The notes beneath the pieces were generated by a model that saw only the letters and a list, made by a program, of their open reading frames with translations, was not told the DNA's origin and did no database searches. A stretch of 24,571 nt of DNA, from positions 1 through 24,571 of IMG/VR virus record IMGVR_UViG_3300032516_000193. One strand, given 5' to 3'. The DNA is from a virus. Below are positions 4,600 through 24,571 of the stretch, one piece after another (within the stretch, counting starts at the first letter, position 1; every line of letters begins with the position of its first letter). Both the position numbers and the translations under genes were made by a program.

Positions 4600-4602
4600 A
4601 TA

Positions 4603-5751: not shown

Positions 5752-5754
5752 AAT

Positions 5755-6831: not shown

Positions 6832-6836
6832 AAAAC

Positions 6837-8007: not shown

Positions 8008-11000
8008 TTAAGCATTGGATAATTCTGCAATAACCGTCCAATTTTGTGCAGTTCCTAGAGTTGTTACATTGAATCTCAATTTATCTCCGCTTACGGTAGT
8101 TGTAAAGGTTCCTGTCGCATAATTTTCATAAGAACTACTAGGCAATGAAACCGAACCAATCAACGAAGCAGAAAAAGCACCCACAACCGATGATTTTTCT
8201 ATATTGATGGATGATGTAATGGATTCTACGGATTGTGCTCTAATAGACAATCGTTTTACACTCCATGATATTACAGTGTTATTTTGTGGATTAAACGGAA
8301 CTATAACTTCCGCCGCGTCGCCGCCGGTTGTGGTTGGTGAAAATGCTGAACATAATACCACAGACCTACCAATAGGCACCCAAGAAGCCGTAACTGCATA
8401 ACTTGATGAAAGTGCTACTGATGAGAATGATGAACTAATTGACCGTGAAGCGAACGATGCTGACGTGGCCCAGAATGATTCTGAGGCAAATGATGCTGAT
8501 ATAGCATAGTCACTCGGAACTGGTGGTGCCCACGATGCGCTGATGGATTGACTTGCAAACGAAGCACTTATTGCAAATGATGCAAATAATGAAGCCGACG
8601 CCCAAGAAGCAGATATTGATGATGTAGCTATAAAAGCTAATTGAGCAAAAGAAGCATAACTTGCACTTACAGCTTGAAGAACATTCAAAGTATTCAATGC
8701 CCATGACGCCGTTCCAAATAAACTCGAAGAAACCGCTGGAACAGTTATAGCATCCGTTGCTGGATTATATGTAAGATTACTTCCACTATCAATATAAAGT
8801 CTCTGAAATCCACTACCAGTTACAAATGGAATGTAGTAAATGCTAGAACCTGTTGCTAAATTGATATTTACAAACAATGACATGGAAGAGTTTACGGCCC
8901 ATGATGCAGACATTGATTGTGTAATAGATGGCAAGAAATAATTGGCCGCGTAAGACCACGACATGTTTTGAAACACTGTTGTTTCATCAGCAAGTGCTTG
9001 AACACCTAAATCAAGAATTGATGCGGATTGAATTCTATTTGTTGCAATACTTCCCGTCGAAGTAAATCCACCATACAACAACAGTTTACTTCCTGATACA
9101 ATAGCTACTTGTGAATGGTCATTAAATGAGTTACTAAACAGTGTACTTGCATATCCACCCGGATTACTTATTTGTGCTCTATTGATTTTTGAAGAAATTA
9201 TACTTCCGTTATATCCACCAAAATTGTAGTAATAATTTCCAATTACAACACCACTGTTGTTTATGTAAGCACATCCCGGATTAATACCAATATTAGCCAC
9301 ACCCCACGCTGACGGATTTTGAACGGATGATGTATAAACCGATGTATTTACGTTATTGAATCCAGACCCGTTAAACCCACCAAACGCACAAATTTTATCA
9401 CCAAGAACGGCGGCATTACCTGCAATCGTTGACTGATATCCTCCACCACCAAACCAAGTTACAGGAACAATAGACCATGATAAAGGATTACTAGCCGTAG
9501 CATACAACGACGCTGAAAATACTGCACTTCCCGAAGAAGTAAGACCACCGAAAATCCACAATTCTTGATTGTCATTAATAACAACCGTGTTATGATTACT
9601 TAGATTAAATGGCAACGAACCGGTAGCAACCCAAGTAGTAGGATCATCTAAAGATGCGGTTTGAATTGAAGATGTTGGAGTTCCTACGTTATCAATAGCA
9701 CCACCGAAAAGATAAAGACTATTACCCAAACGAATACAATTGGTTTGTAAAACTGGTATAGGTAAAGTTTTGCCTGTAGCTACGGTAATTTGACCACCAT
9801 CACCGACTGATGAAGTCCAAATTGTACCAAGTGCCGCTGCGCCACTATAACCACCAAAAACATACACCGTTCCACTCACCATTGCACCAGCCGCACCATA
9901 AAAAGTTGATGATGCGGTTCTAGCGGTAGCACCCAATCGTGATTCCGAAAGTTGAAGTTGATACCAACCCGGAATAGGCCAAGTAATCGTAGTATTGTTG
10001 GAAAATGATGCGCTAGTAGAATAACTTGATGTAATATTCCATACACCCGAACCTGTAACTACCGTCAATCTTCCATTGGTTGTAGTAACAACAACCGAAC
10101 CAGAAGGCATCGTTATATCATTTATAGCAAATTCTTTTCTAGCTGTACCTGTATTAATTGTACAAAACCACTTATCAGTATTGAATTCTACAACACCTGC
10201 TTCTGGAACAGTTAATAGAGTACTTGAATCCCACTTCATCTGACCTCTTGTTGCAGTTCCATCGCCACCCGCCAAATGTAATAAAGCAGTAGGAGTATCA
10301 CTAACAACGTTTTGTCCAATTCTAATACCACCAATGGTTATTTTTGCTTTTGTCGAACCAACATCCGTATCACCATTTACAAGAAAATAATGACCAGCAC
10401 TTACAGCATTAGCATATGAAACATATACTACTTGTTTTAGATAATCGGTTCTCCATCTACCAGCCAAACTGTTTGAACCGCTGATGATGGATGTGATATG
10501 TGTTTGACCAGTAAGACTTGGATTAACCAATGTTATATGGTCTGTTGCTGTAGTAAAGGCATTTGTATTACTTAAAAATATGGTTAAACTGCCTGATGGG
10601 GCTATAGTTCCAAGACCCACTTTACTTCCTGTTTCATACAAAGAACTTGTATCCGACAATGAACCACTTGTAACCCACGTTGTAAAATACTTTGGTGTAC
10701 CCGGTCCTATAGCTATTAAAGCATAAGAAGCCGTCACAGCATAACTTGAACTTAAAGATTGACTGGCCCAAGAGGATGATATTGAAAACGCCGTTACACC
10801 TGATGGAGGCGCCCATGATGCGGATGTAGAATTATACGCCCAACTAGCTGTACCAAAATATAGACCACTACTACTGACAAAAGCAACGGTATCAGATGTA
10901 AAATTTTTCCAAGATTGAATTGTACTAGAATCTAAAACATAAGGAGCAACGTTTATGTATTGGTGGTCAAGTGGTAAACTTGAAGTTAGTGCATATTTCC

Positions 11001-14000
11001 AAGCCAAATAACCTTCCATTTTACGTTGTTCATCAGAACTAATGTTTTGGTTCGTAATAATGATTTCAGCAATTTCTCCACTAAATGGTTGCCCGAAGTT
11101 AGGTTCAAATCCAACAAACAAATCACGAAGATCCATGTCATTTGAACCATTAACAACACCAGAACTTGTAGCAGCATTATTTATGTAAACGGTTAGAATT
11201 GAATTATTAGAATTAACATTACCGTTGACAATATACCAAGAACGAGAAATATTTGCCAAAGCATTTATGTCATAAGTTGTAGTTCCTGATTCATTATACA
11301 TATTCCATTCAGGAACACCACTGAAAATTCTTGGTCCTAATGTAAAATCTCTGGAATTACCAGAATGTCCATTAGCAATCACGGTGCCGTTTGAAAAAGC
11401 TGACGGTGAAACTGGAAATGTTTGTGGCTTGACTACAGCAAATACACACAACGATGATTGAGATATTGATGTACTTCCTGATATAGCACTCAACCTATCA
11501 TTTGTACCATCAAAGTGAACAACACTGTGTCCGTTGATTGATGATGTGTATAAAGCCGGTTGATTACCAGCCGTAGATTGAGTAAAGTAATTTCCATAAG
11601 AACCTGTATCAGGCCATAGAGATACGGATGAACTTTGTGACCCTGTTATATCATCACCACGCAACCATACTCTCATTGGAACGGTTGCGTAAAACGGACT
11701 CCAAAGAATGTTACTAGATGATGAAAATGCTTTGACAGTCAATGTTGCATCTATTTGTGACCCTGTAGCACGAATGCCTACGCCTACTCCTGTATCAAAT
11801 ACAGAACTGGTTTCAGTAAGACTGTTATTCTGCCATTTTGGAAGATAGTTGTTAGTTCCAACAATTCCAAAGGTAGGTGCCCATGATGCACTCAATGAAA
11901 AACTTGCCCACGAAGCAGATTCAGCAAAGCTATTAAACTGTGGTGGCGACCAAGAAGCACTTATTGCAAATGATGCACTTAAAGAACGTGATGCCCAAGA
12001 GGCTGAATCAGCAGCGAACGATTTACTAGCAAATGATGATGTTACTGATATAAAAGATTTACTAGCAAATGACGCGGTGGTAGCCCAAAAAGACTCTGAG
12101 GCCCAAGATGCTGATACAGCAAAATCACTTGGTATTGGCGGCGCCCACGATGCACTAATTGATACAGAAGCAAAAGACGCAGATGTAGAAAAGAATGACC
12201 GTGAAGCAAAAGATGCCGATGTGGCAACAAATGATGCGCTTGCCCAAGATGCGGAAAGAGCATTAGGATTTACATTCAATGAGAAAGATGCAGTAATAGC
12301 GAAACTTGAACTCAACGATTGACTTGCCCAAGATGCAGATACAGCATTAGGATTCAAATTGGTGGCGAAAGAAGCCGTCAATGCAAATGATGACGTTAAA
12401 GAATTGCTTGAACTTAATGATTGACTTGCCCATGATGCTGTATCGGCAGAAAAAGATTTACTAGCCCACGATGCAGAACGTGCAAATAACGATGATGATG
12501 CAAAGGATGCCGATGAGGCCCAGAACGATTCTGAGGCCCAAGAAGCTGATATAGCATAGTCACTTGGGAGTGGTGGTGCCCAACTTGCAGATACGGCCTG
12601 ATAAGCATTTACCGCACTTGAGGCGGTCAAAGCATATGAAGATGATATAGCTTGACTCGAACTCAACGATTGACTTGCCCAAGATGCAGAGGTTGATGAG
12701 CCTGCTGAGCCGGGTGCCCACGAAGCACTAATAGCAAAAGAAGATGTGGCGTATAGTATTCCACTACCACTAAAGAATCCTACAACATTTCTGTTTATAT
12801 CTTTCCATACTTGAATATTGCCGCCACCAAGAGGTATAGGCATGGATGTTTTATAGGTATGTGCTGTAGGCAAACTTTGCACCAATCCATACTTCCAAGC
12901 CAAATATCCTTCAACCCTTGATTGGTCGCCAGCTGATATGGATGAAGTTATGATAATGATTTCAGCTATATCACCATTAAACGGTTGATTAGATGAAGAT
13001 TCCCAACCAATACACAAATCTTTCAAATCTAAGTTTGTAGATTGGGCTGATACTCCTGAACCAGAAGCAGAACCGCTCAAATAAATTGTTGTTGAACTTG
13101 CACCGCCATTTACAATTACGGTATTGATATACCATTCACCTGTTTTAGCGTTGTATGGATTAATGGGAGTTTCCGTATCAAAACTTGAAACTGCATCTTC
13201 GGTGTGAAGAGTCCAAGTAAATCTTGAAGTTCCACCATCAAAACGTTCACCAACTACAATGTCTCTATTATTACCAACGTGACTATTACCAAAAATTGTT
13301 CCTACATTTGCGTTTGTAACAGTAGGAGCATAAGACGTTACCTTGGCTACCACGAACGCTGTCAATGCACTACAACTTACAGAAGTAGGAACAAGACAAC
13401 GCATCTGGTCATTTGTTCCGTCAAATCTAACGGCGGGATAACCATTAAGAACATTGTAAACCAACACCGGCCTTGAAGTAGCAGCAGACGCGGTAGCATG
13501 GTTTAAGTTTGGTGTGGAATCGGGCCATAAGTTTAAAAGACTGGCAGAAATGTCTGTAATAGCATCAGCTCTATACCACAATCTAGGACTATCACTACCC
13601 AAAAGCGTAGGCGTCCATAAAACATTTGAATTACTTACTTCTGTAATTGTAAATGTATCATTCGCTATAGGATTTGGTGTATTTATGCCTACATTGTCAT
13701 CGTTTACATAAATCAAACTGCCAGTAGTAGGCACATTATTCCACCAATACCCTACGTAATTGTTACTTCCCACCAAATTAGAACCTCCGCCGCCGCCATT
13801 TAAAGCGTGAGAGGCTGTCACGGAAAAATATGAATTTTGAGCAAAGCTAGCAGAAATTGGAGTTTGTTGCCAAAATGCGTTGTTTGTTCCACCAATTAGA
13901 GTGTATTCTTTACTGTCATTTGTAACCCAAACTCTCAATCCAAGGTATCTATCACCAAGAGGAATTGCATCACGAGCCGTAGTATCTACCACAACCGTTC

Positions 14001-14280
14001 TTTGGTCAACTGGCAAAGGATTGTCGGTTGTTATAAAGAAAGATGTACTAAGTGATTGACTAGCCCAAGATGCTGATATTGCTGCATTAGCGAATGTGGT
14101 TGGTGGTGGATAAAGAGTATAAAAAGACGCAGATTTATCGGCATTTAAATTTCCCGAAGCATCAATATGAAGAATTACTTCGGATGCCGAAATGTGAGTT
14201 TCACCATAATACGTATTTGTGGCATCACGTTGTAAAATTACAACATCTTTCGGCTGTGGATTTGTATTAGTAATCGGCAT
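8008..14280 (-). CDS. Giant multidomain tail fibre-like protein with lectin, Kelch and Ala/Ser-rich repeat modules
   Basis: A 2090-aa protein, probably a long side-tail fibre that contacts the host surface. Modules in order: N-terminal 1-60; three copies of a G-[ST]-x-x-Y-x-x-x-W...VG[IL] module (about 170-200, 808-836, 1193-1225); two LamG/concanavalin-like lectin domains (about 218-478 and 856-1108), each ending GDIAEIII or GEIAEIII followed by EGYLAWKY; Ala/Ser-rich repeats of [ST]ASWAS-type (515-800, 1145-1190, 1865-1968); a 1225-1395 region with LLHLAGGDGTA; six Kelch motifs (1455-1757); and a C-terminal beta domain (1970-2090). There is no chaperone/autoprotease motif, collagen repeat or transmembrane segment. 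The start is supported by AAAGGT at 14287-14292. Fibre identity is inferred from size, repeats and position; the domain calls are by motif. Confidence 0.8.
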   Translation of the reverse strand: MPITNTNPQPKDVVILQRDATNTYYGETHISASEVILHIDASGNLNADKSASFYTLYPPPTTFANAAISASWASQSLSTSFFITTDNPLPVDQRTVVVDTTARDAIPLGDRYLGLRVWVTNDSKEYTLIGGTNNAFWQQTPISASFAQNSYFSVTASHALNGGGGGSNLVGSNNYVGYWWNNVPTTGSLIYVNDDNVGINTPNPIANDTFTITEVSNSNVLWTPTLLGSDSPRLWYRADAITDISASLLNLWPDSTPNLNHATASAATSRPVLVYNVLNGYPAVRFDGTNDQMRCLVPTSVSCSALTAFVVAKVTSYAPTVTNANVGTIFGNSHVGNNRDIVVGERFDGGTSRFTWTLHTEDAVSSFDTETPINPYNAKTGEWYINTVIVNGGASSTTIYLSGSASGSGVSAQSTNLDLKDLCIGWESSSNQPFNGDIAEIIIITSSISAGDQSRVEGYLAWKYGLVQSLPTAHTYKTSMPIPLGGGNIQVWKDINRNVVGFFSGSGILYATSSFAISASWAPGSAGSSTSASWASQSLSSSQAISSSYALTASSAVNAYQAVSASWAPPLPSDYAISASWASESFWASSASFASSSLFARSASWASKSFSADTASWASQSLSSSNSLTSSFALTASFATNLNPNAVSASWASQSLSSSFAITASFSLNVNPNALSASWASASFVATSASFASRSFFSTSASFASVSISASWAPPIPSDFAVSASWASESFWATTASFASKSFISVTSSFASKSFAADSASWASRSLSASFAISASWSPPQFNSFAESASWASFSLSASWAPTFGIVGTNNYLPKWQNNSLTETSSVFDTGVGVGIRATGSQIDATLTVKAFSSSSNILWSPFYATVPMRVWLRGDDITGSQSSSVSLWPDTGSYGNYFTQSTAGNQPALYTSSINGHSVVHFDGTNDRLSAISGSTSISQSSLCVFAVVKPQTFPVSPSAFSNGTVIANGHSGNSRDFTLGPRIFSGVPEWNMYNESGTTTYDINALANISRSWYIVNGNVNSNNSILTVYINNAATSSGVVNGSNDMDLRDLFVGFEPNFGQPFSGEIAEIIITNQNISSDEQRKMEGYLAWKYALTSSLPLDHQYINVAPYVLDSSTIQSWKNFTSDTVAFVSSSGLYFGTASWAYNSTSASWAPPSGVTAFSISSSWASQSLSSSYAVTASYALIAIGPGTPKYFTTWVTSGSLSDTSSLYETGSKVGLGTIAPSGSLTIFLSNTNAFTTATDHITLVNPSLTGQTHITSIISGSNSLAGRWRTDYLKQVVYVSYANAVSAGHYFLVNGDTDVGSTKAKITIGGIRIGQNVVSDTPTALLHLAGGDGTATRGQMKWDSSTLLTVPEAGVVEFNTDKWFCTINTGTARKEFAINDITMPSGSVVVTTTNGRLTVVTGSGVWNITSSYSTSASFSNNTTITWPIPGWYQLQLSESRLGATARTASSTFYGAAGAMVSGTVYVFGGYSGAAALGTIWTSSVGDGGQITVATGKTLPIPVLQTNCIRLGNSLYLFGGAIDNVGTPTSSIQTASLDDPTTWVATGSLPFNLSNHNTVVINDNQELWIFGGLTSSGSAVFSASLYATASNPLSWSIVPVTWFGGGGYQSTIAGNAAVLGDKICAFGGFNGSGFNNVNTSVYTSSVQNPSAWGVANIGINPGCAYINNSGVVIGNYYYNFGGYNGSIISSKINRAQISNPGGYASTLFSNSFNDHSQVAIVSGSKLLLYGGFTSTGSIATNRIQSASILDLGVQALADETTVFQNMSWSYAANYFLPSITQSMSASWAVNSSMSLFVNINLATGSSIYYIPFVTGSGFQRLYIDSGSNLTYNPATDAITVPAVSSSLFGTASWALNTLNVLQAVSASYASFAQLAFIATSSISASWASASLFASFAISASFASQSISASWAPPVPSDYAISASFASESFWATSASFASRSISSSFSSVALSSSYAVTASWVPIGRSVVLCSAFSPTTTGGDAAEVIVPFNPQNNTVISWSVKRLSIRAQSVESITSSINIEKSSVVGAFSASLIGSVSLPSSSYENYATGTFTTTVSGDKLRFNVTTLGTAQNWTVIAELSNA
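8377..8688 (-). repeat. C-terminal Ala/Ser-rich repeat tract of the giant fibre
   Basis: Encodes residues about 1865-1968, with repeated SASWA, SASFAS and SSSYAVTASW units spaced roughly 10-12 residues apart. It is the same unit type as in the central tract, and the phrase PPxPSDYAISAS recurs in both, pointing to internal duplication. Confidence 0.65.
9010..9918 (-). repeat. Six Kelch-type repeats in the giant fibre (beta-propeller)
   Basis: Encodes residues about 1455-1757. Six motifs with paired Gly occur: VYVFGG (1472), LYLFGG (1522), LWIFGG (1574), ICAFGG (1630), YYNFGG (1684) and LLLYGG (1733). The spacing is 49-56 residues, the usual Kelch blade length, and most blades carry a Trp or aromatic residue upstream. 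Six blades predict one closed propeller, probably for binding glycan or protein. Confidence 0.75.
10957..11715 (-). other. Second LamG/concanavalin A-like lectin domain of the giant fibre
   Basis: Encodes residues about 856-1108. It parallels the first lectin domain: LW-P opening, [VL]W[LY]R[AG]D, SLWPDTG, VHFDGTND, GHSGNSRDF, DLRDLFVGFEP, GEIAEIIITNQNIS and EGYLAWKYAL-SLP-H. Many core positions match domain 1 and the loops differ, as expected for a duplicated binding domain. Confidence 0.65.
11881..12738 (-). repeat. Central Ala/Ser-rich repeat tract of the giant fibre
   Basis: Encodes residues about 515-800, made of some 20 degenerate units such as SASWASQSLSSS, ASFASSSLFARS and SASWASESFWAS with a period near 12 residues. 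At DNA level, variants of 'cccaagatgc' and 'cttgcccaaga' recur. The tract links the two lectin domains and probably forms an elongated trimeric shaft. Confidence 0.75.
12847..13629 (-). other. First LamG/concanavalin A-like lectin domain of the giant fibre
   Basis: Encodes residues about 218-478. Key segments are RLWYRADAI, NLWPDS, VRFDGTND, GNSHVGNNRDI, DLKDLCIGWES, GDIAEIIIITSSIS and EGYLAWKYGL-SLP-H. The GEIAE-type strand followed by EGYLAWKYG is characteristic of LamG-like domains in environmental and phage surface proteins. Confidence 0.65.
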
Positions 14281-15316: not shown

Positions 15317-15700
15317 TTACTTTTTATACACCAGCGAACCTTCATATTCTGGATGTTCAACAAATCCATTCTTCTTGTAGAAGTTGATTTGTTCTTCGGT
15401 GTTACCGTCGTATCCACCCGGTTCAACTAAAATATTTGCGTCAGCGTCTTGTTTAAGAACTTCCGCCACAGCTTTTTGTAATAGATAACTTCCAATGCCT
15501 TGCCCCCTAGAATTTCTATCACCAACCAATGCTCTTGCCACCCACCACCTATTACCGTCAATCCTATCTATACTTACAACCGAATTTCTTGTGGGACCAA
15601 GACCCAATCTATGCATAATAGATACACTTTGAGAGGTAGATAATACAGTTATATCTTTTTCTTCAATTGTTTCAAAAATTAACTGTTTAAGTTTAATCAT
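15317..15700 (-). CDS. GNAT acetyltransferase with capsid-targeting-like N-terminus
   Basis: A protein of about 127 aa that would transfer acetyl from acetyl-CoA to an unknown amine. GNAT motif A is RNSRGQGIGSYLLQKAV (residues about 63-79), holding the R-x-x-G-x-G acetyl-CoA loop, and motif B is INFYKKNGFV near the C-terminus. ATG at 15700 is chosen over the TTG at 15709 because GGGGA lies just upstream and the ATG overlaps the preceding stop as ATGA. This start gives MIKLKQLIFE, matching the shared decapeptide of other genes here and the [IL]-x-E prohead-protease site. It sits inside the neck operon between the gp14- and gp15-like genes. The enzyme family is sure; capsid packaging is inferred; the target is unknown. 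Confidence 0.8.
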   Translation of the reverse strand: MIKLKQLIFETIEEKDITVLSTSQSVSIMHRLGLGPTRNSVVSIDRIDGNRWWVARALVGDRNSRGQGIGSYLLQKAVAEVLKQDADANILVEPGGYDGNTEEQINFYKKNGFVEHPEYEGSLVYKK

Positions 15701-16056
15701 GTTCCCCAATTTGCTAGAGCATTTTTCAATTCGTTACTATTCATTGGTTCAAATTCATCGCCTTGTATATGTGCATACCATTGACCATGTTCATCATTAT
15801 AATAAATTGAATCATCCATTCTTTTTTTATTGGCCAACATCCACGTATTTTTTGCATTAAGCGGCGACATTCCAACGACTGATATTCCAGTACCTCCATG
15901 ATGAATTGATACAATATCTTTTGGGTCTTCGTTGCGTTTCATGGCTGTAGCACTAAGATAATGAAGAACTCTAATAACATCATCTGGAGTACCTGATTTT
16001 GAATGCCAACGATACGTAGGGATTCTTGCTTCTATTAAAGTCTTTAGTTTAATCAT
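15697..16056 (-). CDS. Hypothetical protein with capsid-targeting-like N-terminus
   Basis: A 119-aa protein whose fold I do not recognise. It begins MIKLKTLIEA, close to the decapeptide shared with the GNAT gene next door and with the plus-strand cargo genes; here L-I-E places the presumed cut after residue 9. The remainder is soluble, with IHHGGTGISVVGMSPLNAKN and several aromatic residues (YRWHSK, WYAHIQGDEF). Its ATG overlaps the stop of the gp14-like gene (ATGA), and its own stop overlaps the GNAT start, so the three genes are translationally coupled. It is probably a packaged accessory protein, by inference only. Confidence 0.65.
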   Translation of the reverse strand: MIKLKTLIEARIPTYRWHSKSGTPDDVIRVLHYLSATAMKRNEDPKDIVSIHHGGTGISVVGMSPLNAKNTWMLANKKRMDDSIYYNDEHGQWYAHIQGDEFEPMNSNELKNALANWGT

Positions 16057-16526
16057 ACTTGTCTTTCTACAAGACTCAATTTACTCAATCTTGCGTAATG
16101 AGTGTTTACAATTATTGAAAGAGATTTATCAGAAATACCTCCAAGAAATTGTTCTTGAACTACATTATCAATCTCATGATATCGTTTATTAAATTCTACG
16201 ATATCACCAACCTCCGGATACAAATTGACAAGTTTCAAGTTATCTTCTCTAAATTTGAATACAACAGTTTGATTTCTGTCTGGACCAAATTCATCAAAGT
16301 TAGTATCAATATCAGCGCGGTCAATAAGACAGGTGCATTCAACTCCGGGATAAAATACTTTACCAGATTTTGGGTCTGATTCACCATAAATATTGATTCT
16401 GGTTTGGTCTGCACAAATCTTATAGATAAAGACTTCTGTTTGAATGATATCGCCCATCAACTCTGCATTTATGGAGTTGATGAACTTTACATCCCTATCT
16501 GAAAAATATCTTCCTAGTTTTCCCAT
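16053..16526 (-). CDS. gp14: Neck protein, gp14-like
   Basis: A protein of about 157 aa from ATG 16526 (MGKLGRYFSDRD). In T4, gp14 with gp13 forms the neck that seals the filled head. Diagnostic stretches are ELMGDIIQTEVFIYKI (T4 DVLVAESIQMRGVECYYV) and GDIVEFNKRYHEIDNVVQEQ (T4 [20 protein letters not shown]), with FYPGVECTCLIDRADI between them. A longer reading from 16595 exists, but it overlaps the upstream gene by 65 bases and adds a Met/Ile-rich start. The 16526 start falls 4 bases after the upstream stop, though its ribosome site is weak. It is shorter than T4 gp14 (256 aa). The position between gp13- and gp15-like genes supports the call. Confidence 0.7.
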   Translation of the reverse strand: MGKLGRYFSDRDVKFINSINAELMGDIIQTEVFIYKICADQTRINIYGESDPKSGKVFYPGVECTCLIDRADIDTNFDEFGPDRNQTVVFKFREDNLKLVNLYPEVGDIVEFNKRYHEIDNVVQEQFLGGISDKSLSIIVNTHYARLSKLSLVERQV

Positions 16527-16530
16527 AAAA

Positions 16531-17010
16531 TTATCGGTCAAAGTCTCTATCATCATCCCTATCTTCGTCATAATCTGGCTCAGCATCAAAATCAATGGAA
16601 TTCAATATTTTATCTTCTATATCAGATTGATTTTTGTTCACATACTGTTCTACATAGACTCGCAAAGGTAATAGTTGTTCTGGTGTCAATTTGGCTACAT
16701 CCCACTCTACTTCTTGTCCCCTTTCATCTGTGACTTTCATTGAAACAGGATATTGTTCAATAATATCTACCGATGCTCCCTCTCCCGGATAACAATTCTC
16801 AGGCGGTCCATAAGTTTTTCCCTCACAACCACCATCAGCTTCATATCCAATGGTTATATTGATTAATACATAATCACCCATATTTACAATGCCCGGAATT
16901 GCTAAGTCATCTACTTCAATTTCGTAGTCTTCGTATTCACCACTAGCACCACTTTGTCTTTTACGAATTTCTTGTACAATTTCTTTTATTAGTGATTTTT
17001 TTCTTTTCAT
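16531..17010 (-). CDS. Acidic hypothetical protein in the neck operon
   Basis: A 159-aa protein of unknown function. It opens with a very basic helix, MKRKKSLIKEIVQEIRKRQ, in which the first ten residues end I-K-E, so it may carry a variant of the capsid-targeting decapeptide. A beta-rich middle follows (YEIEVDDL, GDYVLINITIGYE, VSMKVTDERGQEVEW), then LTPEQLLPLRVYVEQYV, and finally a highly acidic tail with repeated Asp/Glu/Arg (EDRDDDRDFDR). AGGAT upstream of the ATG supports the start. It lies between gp13- and gp14-like genes, so a role in neck or head completion is also possible. Confidence 0.65.
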   Translation of the reverse strand: MKRKKSLIKEIVQEIRKRQSGASGEYEDYEIEVDDLAIPGIVNMGDYVLINITIGYEADGGCEGKTYGPPENCYPGEGASVDIIEQYPVSMKVTDERGQEVEWDVAKLTPEQLLPLRVYVEQYVNKNQSDIEDKILNSIDFDAEPDYDEDRDDDRDFDR

Positions 17011-17011
17011 A

Positions 17012-18229
17012 TTATCCTATGTAAATGAATAATGGAACCCGTTTCAATGTTTCCATCATTTGTTCTGATTGTAAGGCTTGATTTTCCATTTGTTGTTTTT
17101 GACTTGTAGCTAGAAGCGATTCTCTGAGTTGTGTAATCAAATCGGTTTTTTCTTGTTGGGCTTCGCTTCTTAATTCTGCACCATCCAAAGTAACATCACC
17201 ACCCGGGATAGGAAGAGTTTGATACTTTTGACGAATAGCACCAAGAAGTTCCTTACATACAGCCAAGAAATATTTACGAATCCATTGCCTACCAACAGAG
17301 TTTAATGTATTGTAAACAACGTTATTATAGGGAATGTTAGCATAGTCAGCAACGTAACTACCTGTGTAGTGTGGGTCGCCGCCTGAGTTCAATGAACCAC
17401 TTAATCTATCTTCCCTCAACATATAGTCAAAATAAACATTAAATCCATACGTTGGAATTGGAAACAATTTCAATTTGTTATTTACCAACTCAAATGAATA
17501 TGCGCTTTTACGAACCATGTCATTAAACTCAATTGCTTGCATACGAAGCAAATCTTCAAAAATCGGAGTCATGAGAAATTGAACCGCAGGAGAATATGCA
17601 CCAAATCCTAATTCATTCAATACATTTGAATAACTCATACCCGTCATAGAAAAGGGGTCATAGACACGGGCGGAAGCAGGAGCCCGTTCATGGAATATCC
17701 TCATTACTTCAATTCTATTACAATTTTCCACTTTATCCCCCCACAAAGCTTGTAAATCATACGTTTGTTGATGAGGATACGTCGTAATGAAACCTTTTTT
17801 CCAATCTGCATATCCACCAACACCAACTTCTCTACCATATCCCTTGGCAAGTTCTATTATGTATGGTAGTGTAGTTCCGGTTACGGCTTTACCTGTAAGA
17901 TTTCCCAATGCTGTAACTTTTTGTCCTTGAAATACTTGAAGGTAATTTTGAATATTCATCTGATTGACTTGAGCTGAATATTCATTTACCGATTCTTCAT
18001 AGGCAGCATAGAAATTTACATCTAAAAGTTCAATGTCAATGACAGGATACCCAAGTCTGTATGCAGCCCAAATGGCCGCCGCTTGTGCATCGGCCTGAAA
18101 CATGAAATCGTTGTCGTAAAAGCCGAATGGCGTTTTACCTACCACCGACGAACCGCTGCCGGGCCATCTTACACGGTCTTGGTCAACTAAAGTAGTTGGA
18201 TTGGTTATTGGTTGTGTTACGTCGCTCAT
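17012..18229 (-). CDS. gp13: Neck protein, gp13-like
   Basis: A protein of about 405 aa. T4 gp13 is a neck protein needed for head completion and tail joining. The C-terminal third matches strongly by eye: RQWIRKYFLAVCKELLGAIR then PIPGGDVTLDGAELRSEAQQ, against T4 [20 protein letters not shown] then LPGGVTIDGQRLIEEA; both proteins end in a short hydrophobic x-x-x-x-G tail. Near the N-terminus RLGYPVIDIELLDVNFYAAY matches T4 [20 protein letters not shown]. The protein is about 100 residues longer than T4 gp13, mostly from a Gln-rich C-terminal segment (SQKQQMENQALQSEQ) and an N-terminal extension. ATG 18229 (MSDVTQP) is preferred to the start at 18238; neither has a good ribosome site. It is the first gene of the leftward operon. 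Confidence 0.85.
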   Translation of the reverse strand: MSDVTQPITNPTTLVDQDRVRWPGSGSSVVGKTPFGFYDNDFMFQADAQAAAIWAAYRLGYPVIDIELLDVNFYAAYEESVNEYSAQVNQMNIQNYLQVFQGQKVTALGNLTGKAVTGTTLPYIIELAKGYGREVGVGGYADWKKGFITTYPHQQTYDLQALWGDKVENCNRIEVMRIFHERAPASARVYDPFSMTGMSYSNVLNELGFGAYSPAVQFLMTPIFEDLLRMQAIEFNDMVRKSAYSFELVNNKLKLFPIPTYGFNVYFDYMLREDRLSGSLNSGGDPHYTGSYVADYANIPYNNVVYNTLNSVGRQWIRKYFLAVCKELLGAIRQKYQTLPIPGGDVTLDGAELRSEAQQEKTDLITQLRESLLATSQKQQMENQALQSEQMMETLKRVPLFIYIG

Positions 18230-18251
18230 AAAAATCACATGTATCTATCTG

Positions 18252-18259
18252 AATAAATA
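18252..18259 (+). promoter_or_regulatory. Candidate late promoter for the rightward accessory operon
   Basis: AATAAATA matches the NATAAATA form used for late genes in T4-like phages such as cyanophages. It lies 37 bases before the start at 18296, which is the first gene of the rightward operon. No other gene-free gap exists in which a promoter for that operon could sit. Confidence 0.45.
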
Positions 18260-18284
18260 TAGAAACTGATAGTGTTTATGCTTA

Positions 18285-18292
18285 TATTTATG
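18285..18292 (-). promoter_or_regulatory. Candidate late promoter for the leftward neck operon
   Basis: The minus strand reads CATAAATA, again of NATAAATA form, about 56 bases before the gp13-like start at 18229. It overlaps the first bases of the rightward transcript and faces the AATAAATA element, so the two transcripts would overlap briefly. Confidence 0.45.
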
Positions 18293-18295
18293 TCC

Positions 18296-18688
18296 ATGAT
18301 TAGCCTTAAAAGAATTATAAATGAAATTATGGAAGCATTACCTCCGATACCTCCTGCACCGCCGGCTATAATACAACAAGTTCCTTCCGTCAACACAAAT
18401 GCTATTGCCGATGCTATTTATGTGGCAGAAGGCGGTAAGAAAACAAGGTTTCCATACGGAATATCTTTGAAAAAGTCAGGAATTCAAACGGCAGATGAAG
18501 CCGACGCTAGAAAAATTTGTCTAAATACGATATCACACGCACTTAATGATTGGAGGGTTAGTGGTTCAAAAGGAAACTTCATAGATTTTTTATCACTGAG
18601 GTATTGTCATGAAAATCATAAGAACTGGGCAAAAATGGTAAAATCCATCATGATAAAACAGAAAAAAGAAAAAGAAGCCAAGAAGTAA
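18296..18688 (+). CDS. Possible lysozyme-like protein with capsid-targeting-like N-terminus
   Basis: A protein of about 130 aa. ATG 18296 is chosen over upstream GTG 18272 and ATGs 18278/18290 because it gives MISLKRIINE, the shared decapeptide with Glu at residue 10. A Pro-rich linker (ALPPIPPAPPAII) follows, then a compact domain with AIYVAEGGKKTRFPYGISLK, ARKICLNTISHALNDW, FIDFLSLRYC and NWAKMVKSIM. An AIxxAEGG...PYGI motif with a later RYC-x-x-N...NW segment is, as I recall, found in small phage and bacterial proteins that look lysozyme-like, with the Glu as candidate catalyst. I could not verify this. A muralytic enzyme carried in the virion would fit. The stop is one base before the next gene. 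Confidence 0.5.
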   Translation: MISLKRIINEIMEALPPIPPAPPAIIQQVPSVNTNAIADAIYVAEGGKKTRFPYGISLKKSGIQTADEADARKICLNTISHALNDWRVSGSKGNFIDFLSLRYCHENHKNWAKMVKSIMIKQKKEKEAKK

Positions 18689-18689
18689 T

Positions 18690-20483
18690 ATGTTAAAGGA
18701 AACCGAAAAAAAGATAAAACTCGGACTTAAGAAATTACAAGCCATCACAGGATTTGTAAACGATTCTTTTGATATAATAGCATCCGATGAACTTTCTCGT
18801 CACGATGATGTTTTGAGTCGTGGTCAGGGTTATGGTATTACTGCCAATGATAATAGATGGCGTTATCATTATGACGATGAGATTGTAAGATGGTGGGAAC
18901 TCATCCCATCTGAAAAACAGAGATTTGTAGTTGAAGAATTCCTAAAATACCAGTATAATGTTAAGGTGAAACGCCATGTTTTATACGGACAGTCACAACC
19001 GGAAGACTTTGGCGGAAACAAACTTATGGAAGAAATTAAACAGTTGATTAAAGAAGGCGTCAAAGAAAAAGCGTTGGAAGACTTTATCAGTAAGACTATT
19101 CGGGGAACTGAATGGCACGGTAAGGTATTCATCGCCGGTGGATATGTCCGTGATGAGTTCATGGGCAAAGACCCAAAAGACCTTGACTTGTTGGTAAACG
19201 CTCCAAATGGCGGAATCGAATTTGCCAAGTGGATTACCAAAAAAGTAGGAGCTTACAGAGGCGGGGCTAACGAAGAAGACCCCGGCTCTAATCCTGTAAT
19301 CTTCCCAAGATTTGGCACAGCGAAGTTTAATCTTCGTGGTGTTGTTCACAATGGTATTGACTTATCCGATATGGATATTGAGTCTGTAATGCCACGTAAA
19401 GAGGAATACACAGCAGGTTCAAGAAAGCCTACCGTAACAGGTGGAGAATTGAAAGATGACGTTGAACGTAGAGACTTTACCGTTAATAGTCTATTGAAAG
19501 ACTTATCAACGGGAGAAATCCTAGACCTTACAGGAATGGGCAAGGCTGACATTCAAGCTGGAATCGTCAGAACCCCTCTCAATCCTGACAAAATTTTCAC
19601 GGATGACCCACTTCGTATGTTGCGAGCAATTCGATTTGCTGTCAAATACAATTGGAAACTTCCAATGTTTATGTTGAGGGGATTGAAGAAGAATGCTAAT
19701 CAACTTCCAAACATTTCTCAGGAAAGAATTCGTGATGAATTGAATAAGATGTTGGTTACAGGCCATCCATCAAAGGCAATCAAAATGATGAAGGTTACAG
19801 GTTTGTTACCATTTGTCATTCCAGAACTTTTGCCTGCCGTCAAGATGGTTCAGAACAAATATCACAAAGCTGATGTGTTTCAACACACTCTTGATGTTCT
19901 TGGTAAAACCGAACCTGTATTGGTTCAACGTTTGATGGGATTGTTTCATGATATCGGCAAGACGGTTACACGTTCTGTTGAACCTGAGACAGGCGGCGTT
20001 CATTTCTACGGTCATGAAATGGAAGGTGAGAAAATGGTTGAAGAAATCATGGCTCGTCTAAAATACCCAAGAGAATTGATTGACGCCGTTAAGTTGGGCG
20101 TTCGTAACCATATGCGTCTAAAGCAGGCAGGTGATGTTGGAATTAAACTAAAAGACAAGACTCTGTTGAAGTTTCGTAATGAAATGGGCGAACAGTTGGA
20201 AAACGTCTTGAACTTGATGCATGCTGATAACATTGCTCACGCCGAAGCGTCATCTATGCCACATCAGATTGCTGGTATTCGTAAACGTTTGGAGACATTG
20301 AAAGATGTTCCTACCAAACCGAAGATGCCTATTTCTGGCTTTGACCTACAAAAAATGGGATTGAAACCCGGACCACTGTTCAAGGAAATCATTACTGCGG
20401 TTACTGATGCTTGGTATGAAAATCCCGGATTAACAAGAGAAGAAGCTTTGGACATTGCTAAAAAAGTAGCAAATATATCATGA
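18690..20483 (+). CDS. cca: tRNA nucleotidyltransferase (CCA-adding enzyme) with HD domain and N-terminal extension
   Basis: Adds or repairs the 3' CCA of tRNA from CTP and ATP. A 597-aa protein with all class II motifs: GGYVRD (150-155) with metal-binding D-L-D (164-166), RRDFTVNSLL (260-269), DPLRMLRAIRF (306-316) and SQERIRDEL (343-351). An HD phosphohydrolase domain follows (H399, H420-D421, H442, H474), as in E. coli Cca. Residues 1-122 are an extra domain absent from the usual ~410-aa enzyme; I do not recognise it. At residues 113-122 MEEIKQLIKE resembles the decapeptide of the neighbours, so either an internal start at 19026 or a protease cut there could yield a standard-size enzyme. 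The gene uses more CGT arginine codons than the next gene. The stop overlaps the next start (ATGA). Confidence 0.85.
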   Translation: MLKETEKKIKLGLKKLQAITGFVNDSFDIIASDELSRHDDVLSRGQGYGITANDNRWRYHYDDEIVRWWELIPSEKQRFVVEEFLKYQYNVKVKRHVLYGQSQPEDFGGNKLMEEIKQLIKEGVKEKALEDFISKTIRGTEWHGKVFIAGGYVRDEFMGKDPKDLDLLVNAPNGGIEFAKWITKKVGAYRGGANEEDPGSNPVIFPRFGTAKFNLRGVVHNGIDLSDMDIESVMPRKEEYTAGSRKPTVTGGELKDDVERRDFTVNSLLKDLSTGEILDLTGMGKADIQAGIVRTPLNPDKIFTDDPLRMLRAIRFAVKYNWKLPMFMLRGLKKNANQLPNISQERIRDELNKMLVTGHPSKAIKMMKVTGLLPFVIPELLPAVKMVQNKYHKADVFQHTLDVLGKTEPVLVQRLMGLFHDIGKTVTRSVEPETGGVHFYGHEMEGEKMVEEIMARLKYPRELIDAVKLGVRNHMRLKQAGDVGIKLKDKTLLKFRNEMGEQLENVLNLMHADNIAHAEASSMPHQIAGIRKRLETLKDVPTKPKMPISGFDLQKMGLKPGPLFKEIITAVTDAWYENPGLTREEALDIAKKVANIS

Positions 20484-22450
20484 TTAATCTCAAATCCATA
20501 GTTTTAGAAAATACTCGTATCAATACCTTTAAAAAGGAATTGACCGACCTTATTAAACGGTGGCGTAAATCGCCGGAAGGTGGGTATGATAAAAAACATC
20601 TGATGGATTTAATCAAACTAGCTTTAATAGAAATAGAAAAAGAAAAACACAAATCTCCATCACAAAGAGAATACGAACAAGACAAAGAAGAGTTCTTTAA
20701 TCATCACTACACAGGATTTATTGGGTCTGATGCGTATAAGAATTATGAGAAGGAAGGTGGATTGTCTTGGTTGGGAAGTAAATCTAAATACCCAAAACTT
20801 TTAGATAGGGGAACATACGGAAATTATGAAGTTGAGTTTAGACAAACAGGAGAAAAAAACCAATATACTCAACACGATGCTAATGGTGAAATCGTTCGAT
20901 ACCCAAATGGAGATATAGGATACATGACTCCGGACGAAATTAAAAAAGCAAACCTGCCAGAATATAATACTAGCATTGTAGCTTTTGTTGGTGATAAACC
21001 AATTGGTTTTGCTGGTGATGAGTTTGGAGCTGTTGGAGTGTGGGTTGAAGGTCCATATCAAAAATTGGGAATAGGCACAGATTTGTTGGATAAACATATT
21101 GAACAAAGACCAACGGTAAAAAGTGGCAGGGGAAAAATAGGTCAGATGACTAATAAAGGTATTTCCATGACCAAAAAATATTACGATTTGATGGCAAAAA
21201 GACATGGAGTAAATTGGTTTCAAAAACTAAAACAAAAACAACAAAATATAAAGGAAAGTTTTGAAGACCGAACGCCACTCCAAATTGATACGGAGAAGTT
21301 TAGGAAATCCTTAATTCAAAAATATCCACAGTTGGAGGATTTGTATTTTTACATTTCTGCTGACCGTTCATTATATCTAAGTTCTATTAGAGTTAAATTA
21401 GAAGACCGACATATGGGAGTCGGAGGGTCAGTAATAAGAGACATTAAGAAATTTGCAGATGACAGAGATTTAGTCATTACTTTATCACCAGAAGCAAAAA
21501 GAGGTTATACAAAAAAGTTGGATAGATTTTACAAAGATTTGGGATTTGTGAATAATAAAGGAAGAAAAAAAGATTATAGCCTTGGTGGTTTTTCCGGTCG
21601 TATAATGTATAGAAGACCTAAAATAAACGAATCATTCAAACTTGCTCCTAACGTTGACAGTCAATCTGAGATATTAGCTAAATTTATCGCATCGTTCTTT
21701 TTGAAATATTTTGAAACGAGAGTGCAAAACTCCAAGACAAAAACTGACCATGCGATTGTAAAATATAATGAGTATTACAAGTTAGCTAAACAATATAGAG
21801 ATGAAGGAAAGAAATTATTCAAAACTATGAGATGTGAAGAAGATACCAATTGGGGTCAGGCTTCTCTACGAGTATATCCAACGTCTGGTGTAGATGGAAA
21901 ATTTATAATGCCTGATGTAATTTTGAAAATTACAAATGGATATACAACATCAAATGGTGGATATGTGGTCCATTCAAAATCTCCACAAGATATTTACATT
22001 TTGGTCAATAGACACAGTTTTATACATTCATTTAAGAAATCTACAGAAGAATTAACGGATACAATAAAACATGAAATTAGACACGTACAACAATTTAGTG
22101 ATAATATTGGATTTCCTAAAACTAAAGTATTAAGTAAGACGGCGGATGTTTTGGGATTTAGAAATATTCATGGATATAATGCTAGAGAAAGGCATCATAT
22201 GCGTGATGTTGAATTTAAGACCAATCTTTACAGTTATAAATTTCACATTGAAAAGTTTTTGAATCGAAGTTTTCCATACAAACAATGGAAGGAAAAATTC
22301 AATGATATAGTTACAGGTAAACCAATTTACACAGGCATTGATACTTTGGAAACTATCATTGATAATTTAGAACACATGAAAAATAAAGACTTCCCACGGT
22401 GGAAATTATTCACCAAGGAATTATACAAACTAATTTTTCCAAATGGATAA
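20480..22450 (+). CDS. Multidomain polyprotein-like cargo: GNAT + GNAT + HExxH zincin-like
   Basis: A 656-aa protein. Residues 1-10, MINLKSIVLE, are the shared capsid-targeting-like decapeptide. Residues about 110-250 form a GNAT-like domain (IVAFVGDKPIGFAG; loop QKLGIGTDLL at 194-203). Residues 260-380 form a second GNAT-like domain (loop RHMGVGGSVI at 310-319; FYKDLGFV at 350-357). Residues 385-656 contain H-E-I-R-H (531-535) in TIKHEIRHVQQF, a zinc-protease HExxH site; a distal ligand may lie in the ERHHMRDVEF region. The domain borders carry N-I-K-E|S-F (256-261) and K-I-N-E|S-F (381-386), both fitting the [IL]-x-E prohead-protease rule. Domain calls are moderately sure; packaging and processing are inferred. 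It starts in an ATGA overlap and its end overlaps the next gene by 8 bases. Confidence 0.7.
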   Translation: MINLKSIVLENTRINTFKKELTDLIKRWRKSPEGGYDKKHLMDLIKLALIEIEKEKHKSPSQREYEQDKEEFFNHHYTGFIGSDAYKNYEKEGGLSWLGSKSKYPKLLDRGTYGNYEVEFRQTGEKNQYTQHDANGEIVRYPNGDIGYMTPDEIKKANLPEYNTSIVAFVGDKPIGFAGDEFGAVGVWVEGPYQKLGIGTDLLDKHIEQRPTVKSGRGKIGQMTNKGISMTKKYYDLMAKRHGVNWFQKLKQKQQNIKESFEDRTPLQIDTEKFRKSLIQKYPQLEDLYFYISADRSLYLSSIRVKLEDRHMGVGGSVIRDIKKFADDRDLVITLSPEAKRGYTKKLDRFYKDLGFVNNKGRKKDYSLGGFSGRIMYRRPKINESFKLAPNVDSQSEILAKFIASFFLKYFETRVQNSKTKTDHAIVKYNEYYKLAKQYRDEGKKLFKTMRCEEDTNWGQASLRVYPTSGVDGKFIMPDVILKITNGYTTSNGGYVVHSKSPQDIYILVNRHSFIHSFKKSTEELTDTIKHEIRHVQQFSDNIGFPKTKVLSKTADVLGFRNIHGYNARERHHMRDVEFKTNLYSYKFHIEKFLNRSFPYKQWKEKFNDIVTGKPIYTGIDTLETIIDNLEHMKNKDFPRWKLFTKELYKLIFPNG

Positions 22451-23705
22451 ACTAATAAACATACTATTTGAGAGTTTAGAGGATAGAGAGAAAAATATCC
22501 AAAAATGGCTCGATAATTTAATAGATAATGCGCCCGGTAAAGATAGGGGTGAGAAACTTCAATATCTGTGGGATAAAGACCCACGGTGGGGTAAAGTTGT
22601 TAAGGCTTTGCGTAATTTCAATAGATACAAGCCACCACATCCAGAAGCTTACAAGGCAAAATTTCAAGCCGACCATTACTATGTTCGATTTGGCGACATT
22701 CCAAAAAGTGGTAAATCTTCAAATCATGTAACCGGTGGATTTGAAAAAGGAATAAGTGCGTATCCTGTGAAGTGGAATACTAAACGTGGTATGTGGGAAT
22801 TGGATACAAGTCAGTTAAGTGATATAGGATTGAATACTTTGGATAGTTTGATAGGAGACTTTTTTGATAAAAAAGGAAGACCCATTTATTTGATACAAGG
22901 TCAATCGTTGGAAGATTTGGGTATTCATGATGATGAACCACTTTTGGACTTGAATAAAATCAAAGTCATCAAAAAATTGAATCCAGAAGAAATTTGGATT
23001 GAACATTATGGAGGCAATGATTGGGGTAACATTGATGAAGTAGTTGGTAAGGTGTTTCTAAGAGAAAATATTGAGTTTGATAAAGGAGACACAGTAATGA
23101 GGATACAAACACCAAAGGGTGAGTATCGTGTCAGAGTTTTTAAGTTTGTAAGGGATGGGATTGTCAAATACAACTATGATATCAACTCTCCACCCGACCA
23201 TTATGCAGACTATCATGGCAAAAAGATTGGTGTAGGTGGAACGGTTCATTTGGGGCCAGCTAGCACAAACGCAGAACAGATATATGCTGCGTTAGCAGAA
23301 CAGTTGAAAAAACTAGGCCTTCCTTATACTCAGGCCTTGAAATTGAAGGTGGTTGATACCAATACTCCTGAGAATAAGGCGTTCTTGGATAAATTGGGCA
23401 CTGTAATAGATGATTTCAAGAAAGAAATGCAAAAGCCAGAAAACCAACCGAAACCATTTGGCGCTGGCCCACCAGAATACAGTCAATGGATTCGTGGTGA
23501 AGATATTAAGAATGGTAGAGTAAAATGGGTAATAGAGAACTATGGCGACTTCTGGATAGTCATTAAATGGTCGGCGTCTCCAAGAGAAACCATGAAAGCT
23601 AGTGAGTTTTTGAAGAATTACGAACAAATTATATCTGGTAAGAAAGCGAAGGGTGACTATGCTATGGAAGTATTTATAAGAAACGAACCATTCAGAGGAA
23701 TATGA
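22443..23705 (+). CDS. Hypothetical two-part protein with capsid-targeting-like N-terminus
   Basis: A 420-aa protein. MDKLINILFE at the start fits the shared decapeptide (Glu at 10, L-F-E). Residues 11-208 contain YYVRFGDIPKSGKSSNHVTG (79-98), E-K-G-I-S-A-Y (101-107) and IYLIQGQSLEDLGIHDDEPL (148-167). The Arg/Gly start, S-x-N and E-x-G-x-S blocks are loosely reminiscent of ADP-ribosyltransferase-like folds, but I cannot support that family. L-R-E|N at 206-209 could be an internal prohead-protease site. Residues 209-420 form a second soluble part, with VGGTVHLGPAS, AEQIYAALAEQLKKLG and two Trp-rich strands (VKWVIENYGDFWIVIKW). The start overlaps the previous gene by 8 bases and lacks an evident ribosome site. 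Function unknown. Confidence 0.65.
   Translation: MDKLINILFESLEDREKNIQKWLDNLIDNAPGKDRGEKLQYLWDKDPRWGKVVKALRNFNRYKPPHPEAYKAKFQADHYYVRFGDIPKSGKSSNHVTGGFEKGISAYPVKWNTKRGMWELDTSQLSDIGLNTLDSLIGDFFDKKGRPIYLIQGQSLEDLGIHDDEPLLDLNKIKVIKKLNPEEIWIEHYGGNDWGNIDEVVGKVFLRENIEFDKGDTVMRIQTPKGEYRVRVFKFVRDGIVKYNYDINSPPDHYADYHGKKIGVGGTVHLGPASTNAEQIYAALAEQLKKLGLPYTQALKLKVVDTNTPENKAFLDKLGTVIDDFKKEMQKPENQPKPFGAGPPEYSQWIRGEDIKNGRVKWVIENYGDFWIVIKWSASPRETMKASEFLKNYEQIISGKKAKGDYAMEVFIRNEPFRGI
23693..23700 (+). promoter_or_regulatory. Ribosome binding site of the 2H phosphoesterase gene
   Basis: CAGAGGAA lies just before the ATGATGA stop/start overlap. It serves the tandem ATGs at 23702 and 23705, either of which preserves the decapeptide. 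It is the clearest Shine-Dalgarno match in the rightward operon. Confidence 0.5.
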
Positions 23706-24451
23706 TGATTAACTTAAAAAAAATGTTGACTGAAAATAGAGACGTATCGGCACGTAAGGGGTGTTTGATGGCCATGTTATCAGAAGAAGATACGGCCAAA
23801 ATTCTTAAATTCAGTAAACAATTGATTAACGATGAAGACCTGTATCTTGAAGGTAATGAATATGGTAGAGAAATGGAATCTCATGTTACTATTCGTTATG
23901 GATTTTTAAAAGATTTGAATGAACTTGATATACGTCAATTGATTCAAGGACAAAAACCATTCATGATGGAAATTTTTGGGTTGGATAAATTTGCACCACA
24001 TCCAAGTTATGATGTGGCTGTATTTAAAGTAAACAGTCCTGTATTGAAAAAATTAAACGAATTATCAGGAGCCCATCTGAATGAAAGTGATTATCCTGAT
24101 TATATTCCACATCTTACTTTGGCTTATGTTAAAAAAGGAAAATTCAATCGTCTTAAAGAAGGGTTGAGATTAAATGTTCCTATTAAGCGGTTGTGTTATT
24201 CACCTATTAGTGGTGGTAAATCATATTTTGATTTGACCGAAGGTAATATCCATCACGACATAGATGGTAAAATTGCACGACTTGAACAAGAGTGGGATAG
24301 ATTGGACTCTACGGGTACAGGCACAGCTAGACAACAACAGATTCAACAGGAATTAGGAATGCTTAGAGCCGAAAAAGAAAAACAACCATTATCCCCAAGC
24401 GACCCTAAATCTAAAGAACTTTGGTCAAAAGTAAAAAAATCCACGTCATGA
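23702..24451 (+). CDS. 2H phosphoesterase (LigT/2'-5' RNA ligase-like) with capsid-targeting-like N-terminus
   Basis: A 249-aa protein. The two signature motifs are present at normal spacing: H-V-T (61-63, in ESHVTIRYGF) and H-L-T (137-139, in YIPHLTLAYV). 2H enzymes cleave or seal 2',5'- and cyclic phosphodiesters in RNA and nucleotides; the phage anti-CBASS protein Acb1 (T4 57B) belongs to this superfamily. The N-terminus (M)MINLKKMLTE is the shared decapeptide with L-T-E at the presumed cut. Residues 187-225 are a charged, Gln/Glu-rich probable coiled coil that goes beyond the catalytic domain and may mediate oligomerisation or scaffold contact. The start overlaps the previous stop (ATGA), and the stop overlaps the next start. 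Fold call is strong; substrate is unknown (RNA repair, or defence-signal nucleotide degradation). Confidence 0.8.
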   Translation: MMINLKKMLTENRDVSARKGCLMAMLSEEDTAKILKFSKQLINDEDLYLEGNEYGREMESHVTIRYGFLKDLNELDIRQLIQGQKPFMMEIFGLDKFAPHPSYDVAVFKVNSPVLKKLNELSGAHLNESDYPDYIPHLTLAYVKKGKFNRLKEGLRLNVPIKRLCYSPISGGKSYFDLTEGNIHHDIDGKIARLEQEWDRLDSTGTGTARQQQIQQELGMLRAEKEKQPLSPSDPKSKELWSKVKKSTS

Positions 24452-24571
24452 TTAAATTAAAGTCATTACTTAAAGAAATAGAATATCCTCTTGCTGGAAA
24501 AGAAGACCTTCAATCCTATGGTGGTAATGAAGGTTGGAAAGGAAAGGTTGTGTGGATGACTCCTGATAAAT
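24448..24571 (+). CDS. Start of another capsid-targeting-like cargo gene (cut by the right edge)
   Basis: The ATG at 24448 overlaps the preceding stop (ATGA). The 41 visible codons begin MIKLKSLLKE, the shared decapeptide with L-K-E at residues 8-10, followed by IEYPLAGKEDLQSYGGNEGW and then GKVVWMTPDK. The GNEGWKGKVVWMTPDKF-like wording is also seen at the start of some phage proteins of unknown role; too little is visible to name it. It shows that the cargo operon continues beyond the window. Confidence 0.65.
   Translation, partial: MIKLKSLLKEIEYPLAGKEDLQSYGGNEGWKGKVVWMTPDK

Follow-up and report, generated by a model that had tools for sequence, protein, structure and literature searches.

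The question raised by this locus is why genes with mostly unrelated products should begin with much the same ten residues. In the IMG/VR virus record IMGVR_UViG_3300032516_000193, taken whole as a 24.6-kb fragment (24,571 nucleotides; hereafter the window), seven genes open with variants of M-I-K-L-K-x-L-[LI]-x-E. We conclude that these decapeptides are very probably propeptides of the capsid-targeting type known from phage T4, and that they belong to a greatly expanded form of the system made up there of the capsid-targeting sequence (CTS) and the protease gp21. The genes concerned are listed below, with an arrow after the Glu at which cleavage would be expected.

Gene A, 15317..15700, minus strand: GNAT acetyltransferase-like; leader MIKLKQLIFE↓T at 15671-15700
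Gene B, 15697..16056, minus strand: 119 aa, fold not assigned; leader MIKLKTLIE↓A (MIKLKTLIEA) at 16030-16056, with Glu as residue 9
Gene C, 16531..17010, minus strand: start MKRKKSLIKE, weighed and then excluded as a tag
Gene D, 18296..18688, plus strand: 130 aa, without a Pfam family; leader MISLKRIINE↓I at 18296-18325
Gene E, 20480..22450, plus strand: three-domain protein (GNAT, GNAT-like and HExRH metallopeptidase-like); leader MINLKSIVLE↓N at 20480-20509
Gene F, 22443..23705, plus strand: 420 aa, function not assigned; leader MDKLINILFE↓S at 22443-22472, which fits the T4-position rule given below
Gene G, 23705..24451, plus strand: 2H phosphoesterase-like, with two HxT motifs; leader MINLKKMLTE↓N at 23705-23734
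Gene H, 24448..24571, plus strand: interrupted by the contig end; leader MIKLKSLLKE↓I at 24448-24477

All eight peptides picked out by the initial annotation are present at these coordinates and on these strands. Its statement that Glu occupies residue 10 in nearly all of them holds in general, the exception being gene B. Orthologues of gene A at 50-54% identity keep the leader, as MIKLKQLLYE. The start of gene C had been counted as a looser member of the family; its orthologues begin with MKKSQLKPLIKT, MKKEQLKILVRE and others that retain neither the leader nor the Glu, and it was rejected as a tag.

The leader was compared with the ten-residue CTS of T4, in which targeting depends on residues 4 and 7 and processing on residues 8 and 10, with gp21 cleaving after L/I-x-E (PMC9026906). 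With L4, L/I7, L/I8 and E10, the leader agrees at all four mapped positions. A T4-position rule was taken from these mutational data (hydrophobic at 4, 7 and 8 with Glu at 10); it selects 5 of the 21 called window genes, versus 11 of 4091 internal Met codons (P ~3e-9), and because of this enrichment at gene starts a chance origin of the leaders was discounted. Applied unadjusted to 69 T4 genes, the rule picks exactly ipII, ipIII and gp24, all of which encode gp21 substrates, and the T4 internal proteins IPI-III are known to bear a CTS (Mullaney and Black 1996, as reviewed in PMC9026906). The letters differ between lineages (MIKLKxLLxE here versus MKTYQEFIAE in T4), the nearest in T4 being the gp21-cut propeptide of gp24, MAKINELLRE↓S, which has I/L at 4, LL at 7-8 and E10; gp24, however, is a shell vertex protein and not internal cargo.

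Conservation of the leader was then assessed in relatives, which were retrieved independently of the tag by means of the following gene, itself weakly similar to the neck proteins of T4-like phages.

Neck protein, 17012..18229, minus strand: gp13-like, head-tail adaptor Ad2 family (phrog_211, E 1e-10)

Seeding on the first five residues alone collected 68 distinct gene starts from the retrieved loci. Leu is at position 4 in 67/68, a hydrophobic residue at position 7 in 66/68 and at position 8 in 66/68; both 7 and 8 are hydrophobic in 65/68, compared with 122/639 other genes. Glu lies at 9 or 10 in 60 of the 68, versus 12% of other genes (P ~2e-46). When the leader was stripped from 62 distinct tagged proteins, their bodies fell into 27 clusters without detectable similarity to each other, among them CCA-adding enzyme, GNAT, phage lysozyme, RNase T-type exonuclease, NUDIX and 2H/tRNA-ligase CPD-like domains, together with a weak match to ART-PolyVal. 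The view of the initial annotation that the set is much broader than that of T4 is supported: where T4 has three small basic proteins, one 365-kb relative (G001) carries ~10 tagged genes, and many of the bodies are enzyme domains, sometimes joined in polyproteins with internal sites. Otherwise the likeness to T4 extends to a short N-terminal leader ending in [LI]-x-E, varied bodies and, in the relative G001, a gp21-type protease.

An unbiased scan of IMG/VR with the corresponding DNA pattern gave gene starts in 95/97 of the matches listed, and added a tagged zeta-toxin-like kinase and a tagged SprT-like protein. By comparison, a permuted motif (the same residues reordered) found 72 stretches in the whole IMG/VR collection, 10 of them at gene starts, and the true pattern in bacterial genomes fell at gene starts in 15/79 cases, several being ordinary bacterial genes.

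A number of tagged genes are found in two forms, as stand-alone genes and as fusions downstream of another domain, so that the residues before each body can be compared in the two settings. Three such junctions lie in the window:

CCA internal site, 19026..19055, plus strand: MEEIKQLIKE↓G at the boundary between the extension and the CCA-adding enzyme
Gene E domain 1/2 junction, 21248..21256, plus strand: IKE↓S
Gene E domain 2/3 junction, 21623..21631, plus strand: INE↓S

Domain 3 of gene E, for example, stands alone as MIKLKTILNE↓AFELP or MIKMGQLIKE↓VFELP, and is fused as KINE↓SFKLA in the window, TLSE↓AFELP in a second relative (G014) and KLNE↓AFEIP in G001. Domain 2 is found alone as MIKLKPLIIE↓GFGDK (G001) and fused as QNIKE↓SFEDR (window). 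The CCA-adding enzyme behaves likewise (alone, MIKLKQLIKE↓GILEQ and MSIKQLILE↓GVKEK; fused, QLIKE↓GVKEK in the window, QLIVE↓GVREK and KLMSE↓GVKEK), and in two further loci a copy of gene B is fused behind the GNAT gene A (L011; junction KKLLE↓S) and gene H is fused to an ADP-ribosyltransferase (ART)-like gene (L009; junction DLKE↓I). In all of these fusions, of domain 2, domain 3, the CCA-adding enzyme, B and H, [LIM]-x-E is kept at the aligned position, against a random expectation of 1.25% for the motif ending at a given residue, and the Glu stays aligned behind a start codon and behind a foreign domain alike. Such a pattern would follow from the need for a protease to free each part, and it is the strongest new evidence for the propeptide reading.

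The gp21-like protease that the initial annotation proposed to look for was found in the close relative G001, whose neck protein is 83% identical to that of the window. There, an S77 prohead protease (E 1.7e-27) has GELDHP and SSRGLG at the catalytic His and Ser segments, as in T4 gp21 (GEL-HP, SSRGLG). The G001 capsid protein carries [IL]-x-E↓A aligned to the cut site of T4 gp23 (E65), as do those of five other phages, and the MIKLK-type tagged genes of G001 map to 359 kb and to 3-24 kb on its contig, close to the genes for the neck (10 kb) and the capsid (354-356 kb).

Published virion proteomes were used to ask whether proteins with such starts are packaged. For the T4-like cyanophage S-CREM2, for which a mass spectrometry (MS) virion list with coordinates is available (PMC10665884), the T4-position rule selects 6 of 217 genes, and 5 of these 6 are in virions (Fisher P 0.003; 0.0004 excluding tail/neck proteins). 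The five are an S-adenosylmethionine (SAM) hydrolase, an APH/ChoK-like kinase, a cytidylyltransferase and two proteins without assigned function; the sixth is a 56-codon open reading frame. In the jumbo phage Atu_ph07 the tandem genes gp053-gp062 start with M[RK]WxQL[TNI]E or close variants, and this array lies inside the cluster of coding sequences 31-76, from which 29 proteins were detected in virions by MS (PMC6102473); the virion evidence was used at cluster level only.

Two side observations concern these phages. S-CREM2 gp12 (L360, 7704-10313), a virion-detected Cas9-like nuclease, has LRFASFMAE↓A at about residues 17-25; this resembles a displaced copy of the S-CREM2 leader, and the annotated start may be too early. 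In Atu_ph07 (NC_042013, L353; 19484-30592), about ten of the hypothetical proteins gp053-gp063 share M[RK]WxQLTE together with a YRGM motif, which to the eye suggests an ADP-ribosyltransferase; Pfam finds nothing.

A number of results weigh against the propeptide reading. The 24.6-kb window, which does not reach the head genes, contains no S77 protease gene. Across IMG/VR, S77 matches are only modestly more frequent in tag-bearing contigs than in permuted-motif contigs (8.6/Mb versus 3.7/Mb, P 0.02), and per contig the difference is not significant (25/41 versus 8/20, P 0.10); the first 20 tag contigs were picked for length or several hits, so that these 20 were not drawn at random, and two tag-bearing contigs >100 kb gave no S77 match. 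This co-occurrence is suggestive only, and we set it aside as strong proof. In S-SZBM1 the rule picks four genes, 0/4 of which are in a 30-protein list from shallower MS; the packaged cytidylyltransferase of this phage begins with a leader that is shorter by one residue, MRFRQFIIE↓A. A variable-offset form of the rule lost its predictive value in S-CREM2 (P 0.09) and was dropped. Finally, the CCA gene of the window has an internal site yet no N-terminal tag to target it.

Other explanations of the leader were weighed alongside that of a propeptide on injected cargo. The closest also has the leader target the prohead, with the bodies acting in the head or its assembly, through core filling or DNA compaction, and not as injected effectors. 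No host role of T4 IPII or IPIII is known with certainty, and the evidence for packaging and cleavage has no bearing on injection. We nonetheless regard this as unlikely, given that the tagged bodies include many enzymes of kinds usual among injected or polyvalent proteins (GNAT, 2H phosphoesterase, NUDIX, ART-PolyVal, zeta-type kinase, lysozyme and SprT-like) and that domain 2 of gene E is GNAT-like and related to DarB-like and PLxRFG proteins. It is also conceivable that the peptide serves as an amphipathic signal for localisation or for the membrane, with no connection to the head, its [IL]-x-E being a coincidence, and the AlphaFold model of gene B does place a low-confidence helix at residues 4-11; the fixed Glu, the junction sites, the match to the T4 mapping and the virion enrichment in S-CREM2 make this very improbable.

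Less probable still is that the conserved start is an element of DNA or translation (either a start coupled to overlapping stops in ATGATTAA or a site of recombination at which bodies are shuffled) in which the peptide is incidental. It is true that ATGATTAA contains stops in the other two frames and that several genes overlap the one upstream of them. Across relatives, however, the codons for Leu at 4, 7 and 8, for Lys and for Ile vary freely while the residues stay fixed, and therefore selection acts on the peptide and the conservation is at the protein level. Moreover, Glu 10 lies beyond the gene overlap, and the aligned [LIM]-x-E at junctions that have no start codon disfavours any explanation based on the start codon or the DNA. 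An element at the DNA level was accordingly rejected on codon diversity, being already largely refuted.

Under the favoured reading, that of a T4-type capsid-targeting propeptide, the hydrophobic face formed by residues 4 and 7 would dock tagged proteins on the scaffold core during head assembly, and an S77 protease of the gp21 type would cut after Glu 9/10, so that the mature protein is set free within the head. In the group to which this large T4-like phage belongs, the system would be widened to about ten genes per genome, with unrelated and often enzymatic bodies. Cargo made as polyproteins would be cut at its [LIM]-x-E junctions as well, yielding free cargo, and the freed proteins would probably enter the cell along with the DNA and act there as early effectors. 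We consider packaging and cleavage likely, packaging being supported by analogy with T4 and S-CREM2 and cleavage being what would be predicted for the window phage. Injection we infer from the kinds of enzyme involved and from the parallel with the internal proteins of T4, Alt and the P1 Dar proteins, and host targets are likewise inferred. The packaged and injected set proposed by the initial annotation is supported in part: its capsid-targeting leader stands (through the T4 spacing, the G001 protease and capsid site, the junctions and S-CREM2), and its member at 17010 falls away.

As to the bodies themselves, the claim that they share no fold is largely right, since they are mostly unrelated, but A and E both contain GNAT domains. 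Profile searches matched no family in genes B, D, F and H. The AlphaFold model of gene B (predicted local distance difference test, pLDDT, 82) gave no match with Foldseek against the PDB; in relatives its family forms a tandem array of small tagged paralogues (L151, 17439-18854; L011, 9638-10317). Gene D had been called lysozyme-like, which is unsupported: besides lacking a Pfam family, it has no similarity to a tagged lysozyme. Foldseek against the PDB likewise found nothing for the structure model of gene E domain 3 (HExRH). Gene G matches PF13563 at 27.0 bits (cut-off 27) and phrog_755 at E 1e-11, and falls under the curated cut-off of 27 for PF23474 Acb1, at 25.4 bits; from its sequence it is classed as a 2H phosphoesterase only, its similarity to Acb1, a nuclease directed against the cyclic-oligonucleotide-based anti-phage signalling system (CBASS), being weak. 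The combination of leader and weak Acb1 similarity in gene G (23705-24451) raises the possibility of a pre-packaged signal-degrading enzyme. Gene H is full-length in one relative (L001), at 142 aa. The remaining assigned gene of this region is untagged:

CCA gene, 18690..20483, plus strand: tRNA nucleotidyltransferase, CCA-adding type (PF01743, PF12627 and HD)

It has a 122-residue upstream extension (18690-19055, with the internal site), and in relatives both stand-alone and longer versions of the enzyme are tagged. PADLOC reported no noteworthy defence or anti-defence family. Elsewhere in the window are a 2090-residue protein rich in SASWAS/SASFAS repeats, probably a tail fibre (8008-14280), and four tandem paralogues of 333-382 aa with FTIYTSSDPQGPGP..GxTGSL-type starts in common (3598-7946).

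Parts of this picture have precedents. Polyvalent proteins, as treated in the portion of Iyer et al. 2017 (PMC5512222) considered here, have the same GNAT, ART, metallopeptidase and kinase repertoire and are predicted to be packaged and injected, and domain 2 of gene E resembles their DarB-like and PLxRFG regions. They are, however, usually single giant multidomain proteins, unlike the mainly separate short proteins with one leader found here, and no common leader is reported for them in that portion; at least two disparate enzymatic domains in one polypeptide are present in gene E only. In P1, an N-terminal signal also packages an antirestriction protein, DarB, but it lies within 30 residues, and no consensus emerged among Dar proteins (PMC9024508). 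The internal head proteins of SPN3US and phiKZ similarly have propeptides cut by a diverged gp21, but several of these exceed 100 residues, with no shared decapeptide (PMC5694885).

The T4 mechanism and packaged polyvalent effectors (PMC5512222) are therefore already known, and a review has suggested that the T4 CTS may be a general mechanism (PMC9026906), an idea to which we add statistics and controls, a test on fusions and a check against proteomes. What appears new, within the open PubMed Central (PMC) literature, is how large a set a single leader covers, that tagged single genes alternate with polyproteins carrying the site, and that each lineage has its own dialect (MIKLKxLLxE here, MKxFxSFLTE in S-CREM2, M[RK]WxQLTE in Atu_ph07 and MKTYQEFIAE in T4). 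We lean slightly towards a wider proposal, in which a general code for cargo is common to T4-like phages, with every lineage placing its own leader dialect on dozens of unrelated, exchangeable proteins, with internal cut sites allowing polyprotein effectors to be separated inside the capsid. If this is true, the leader alone would list a phage's injected proteins. As the injected proteins of large phages are mostly unknown, such a readable label would allow candidate virion cargo to be listed from raw genomes, including counter-defence enzymes, host-takeover modifiers and even a CCA-adding enzyme, and lineage-specific tags would serve for loading proteins into phage heads.
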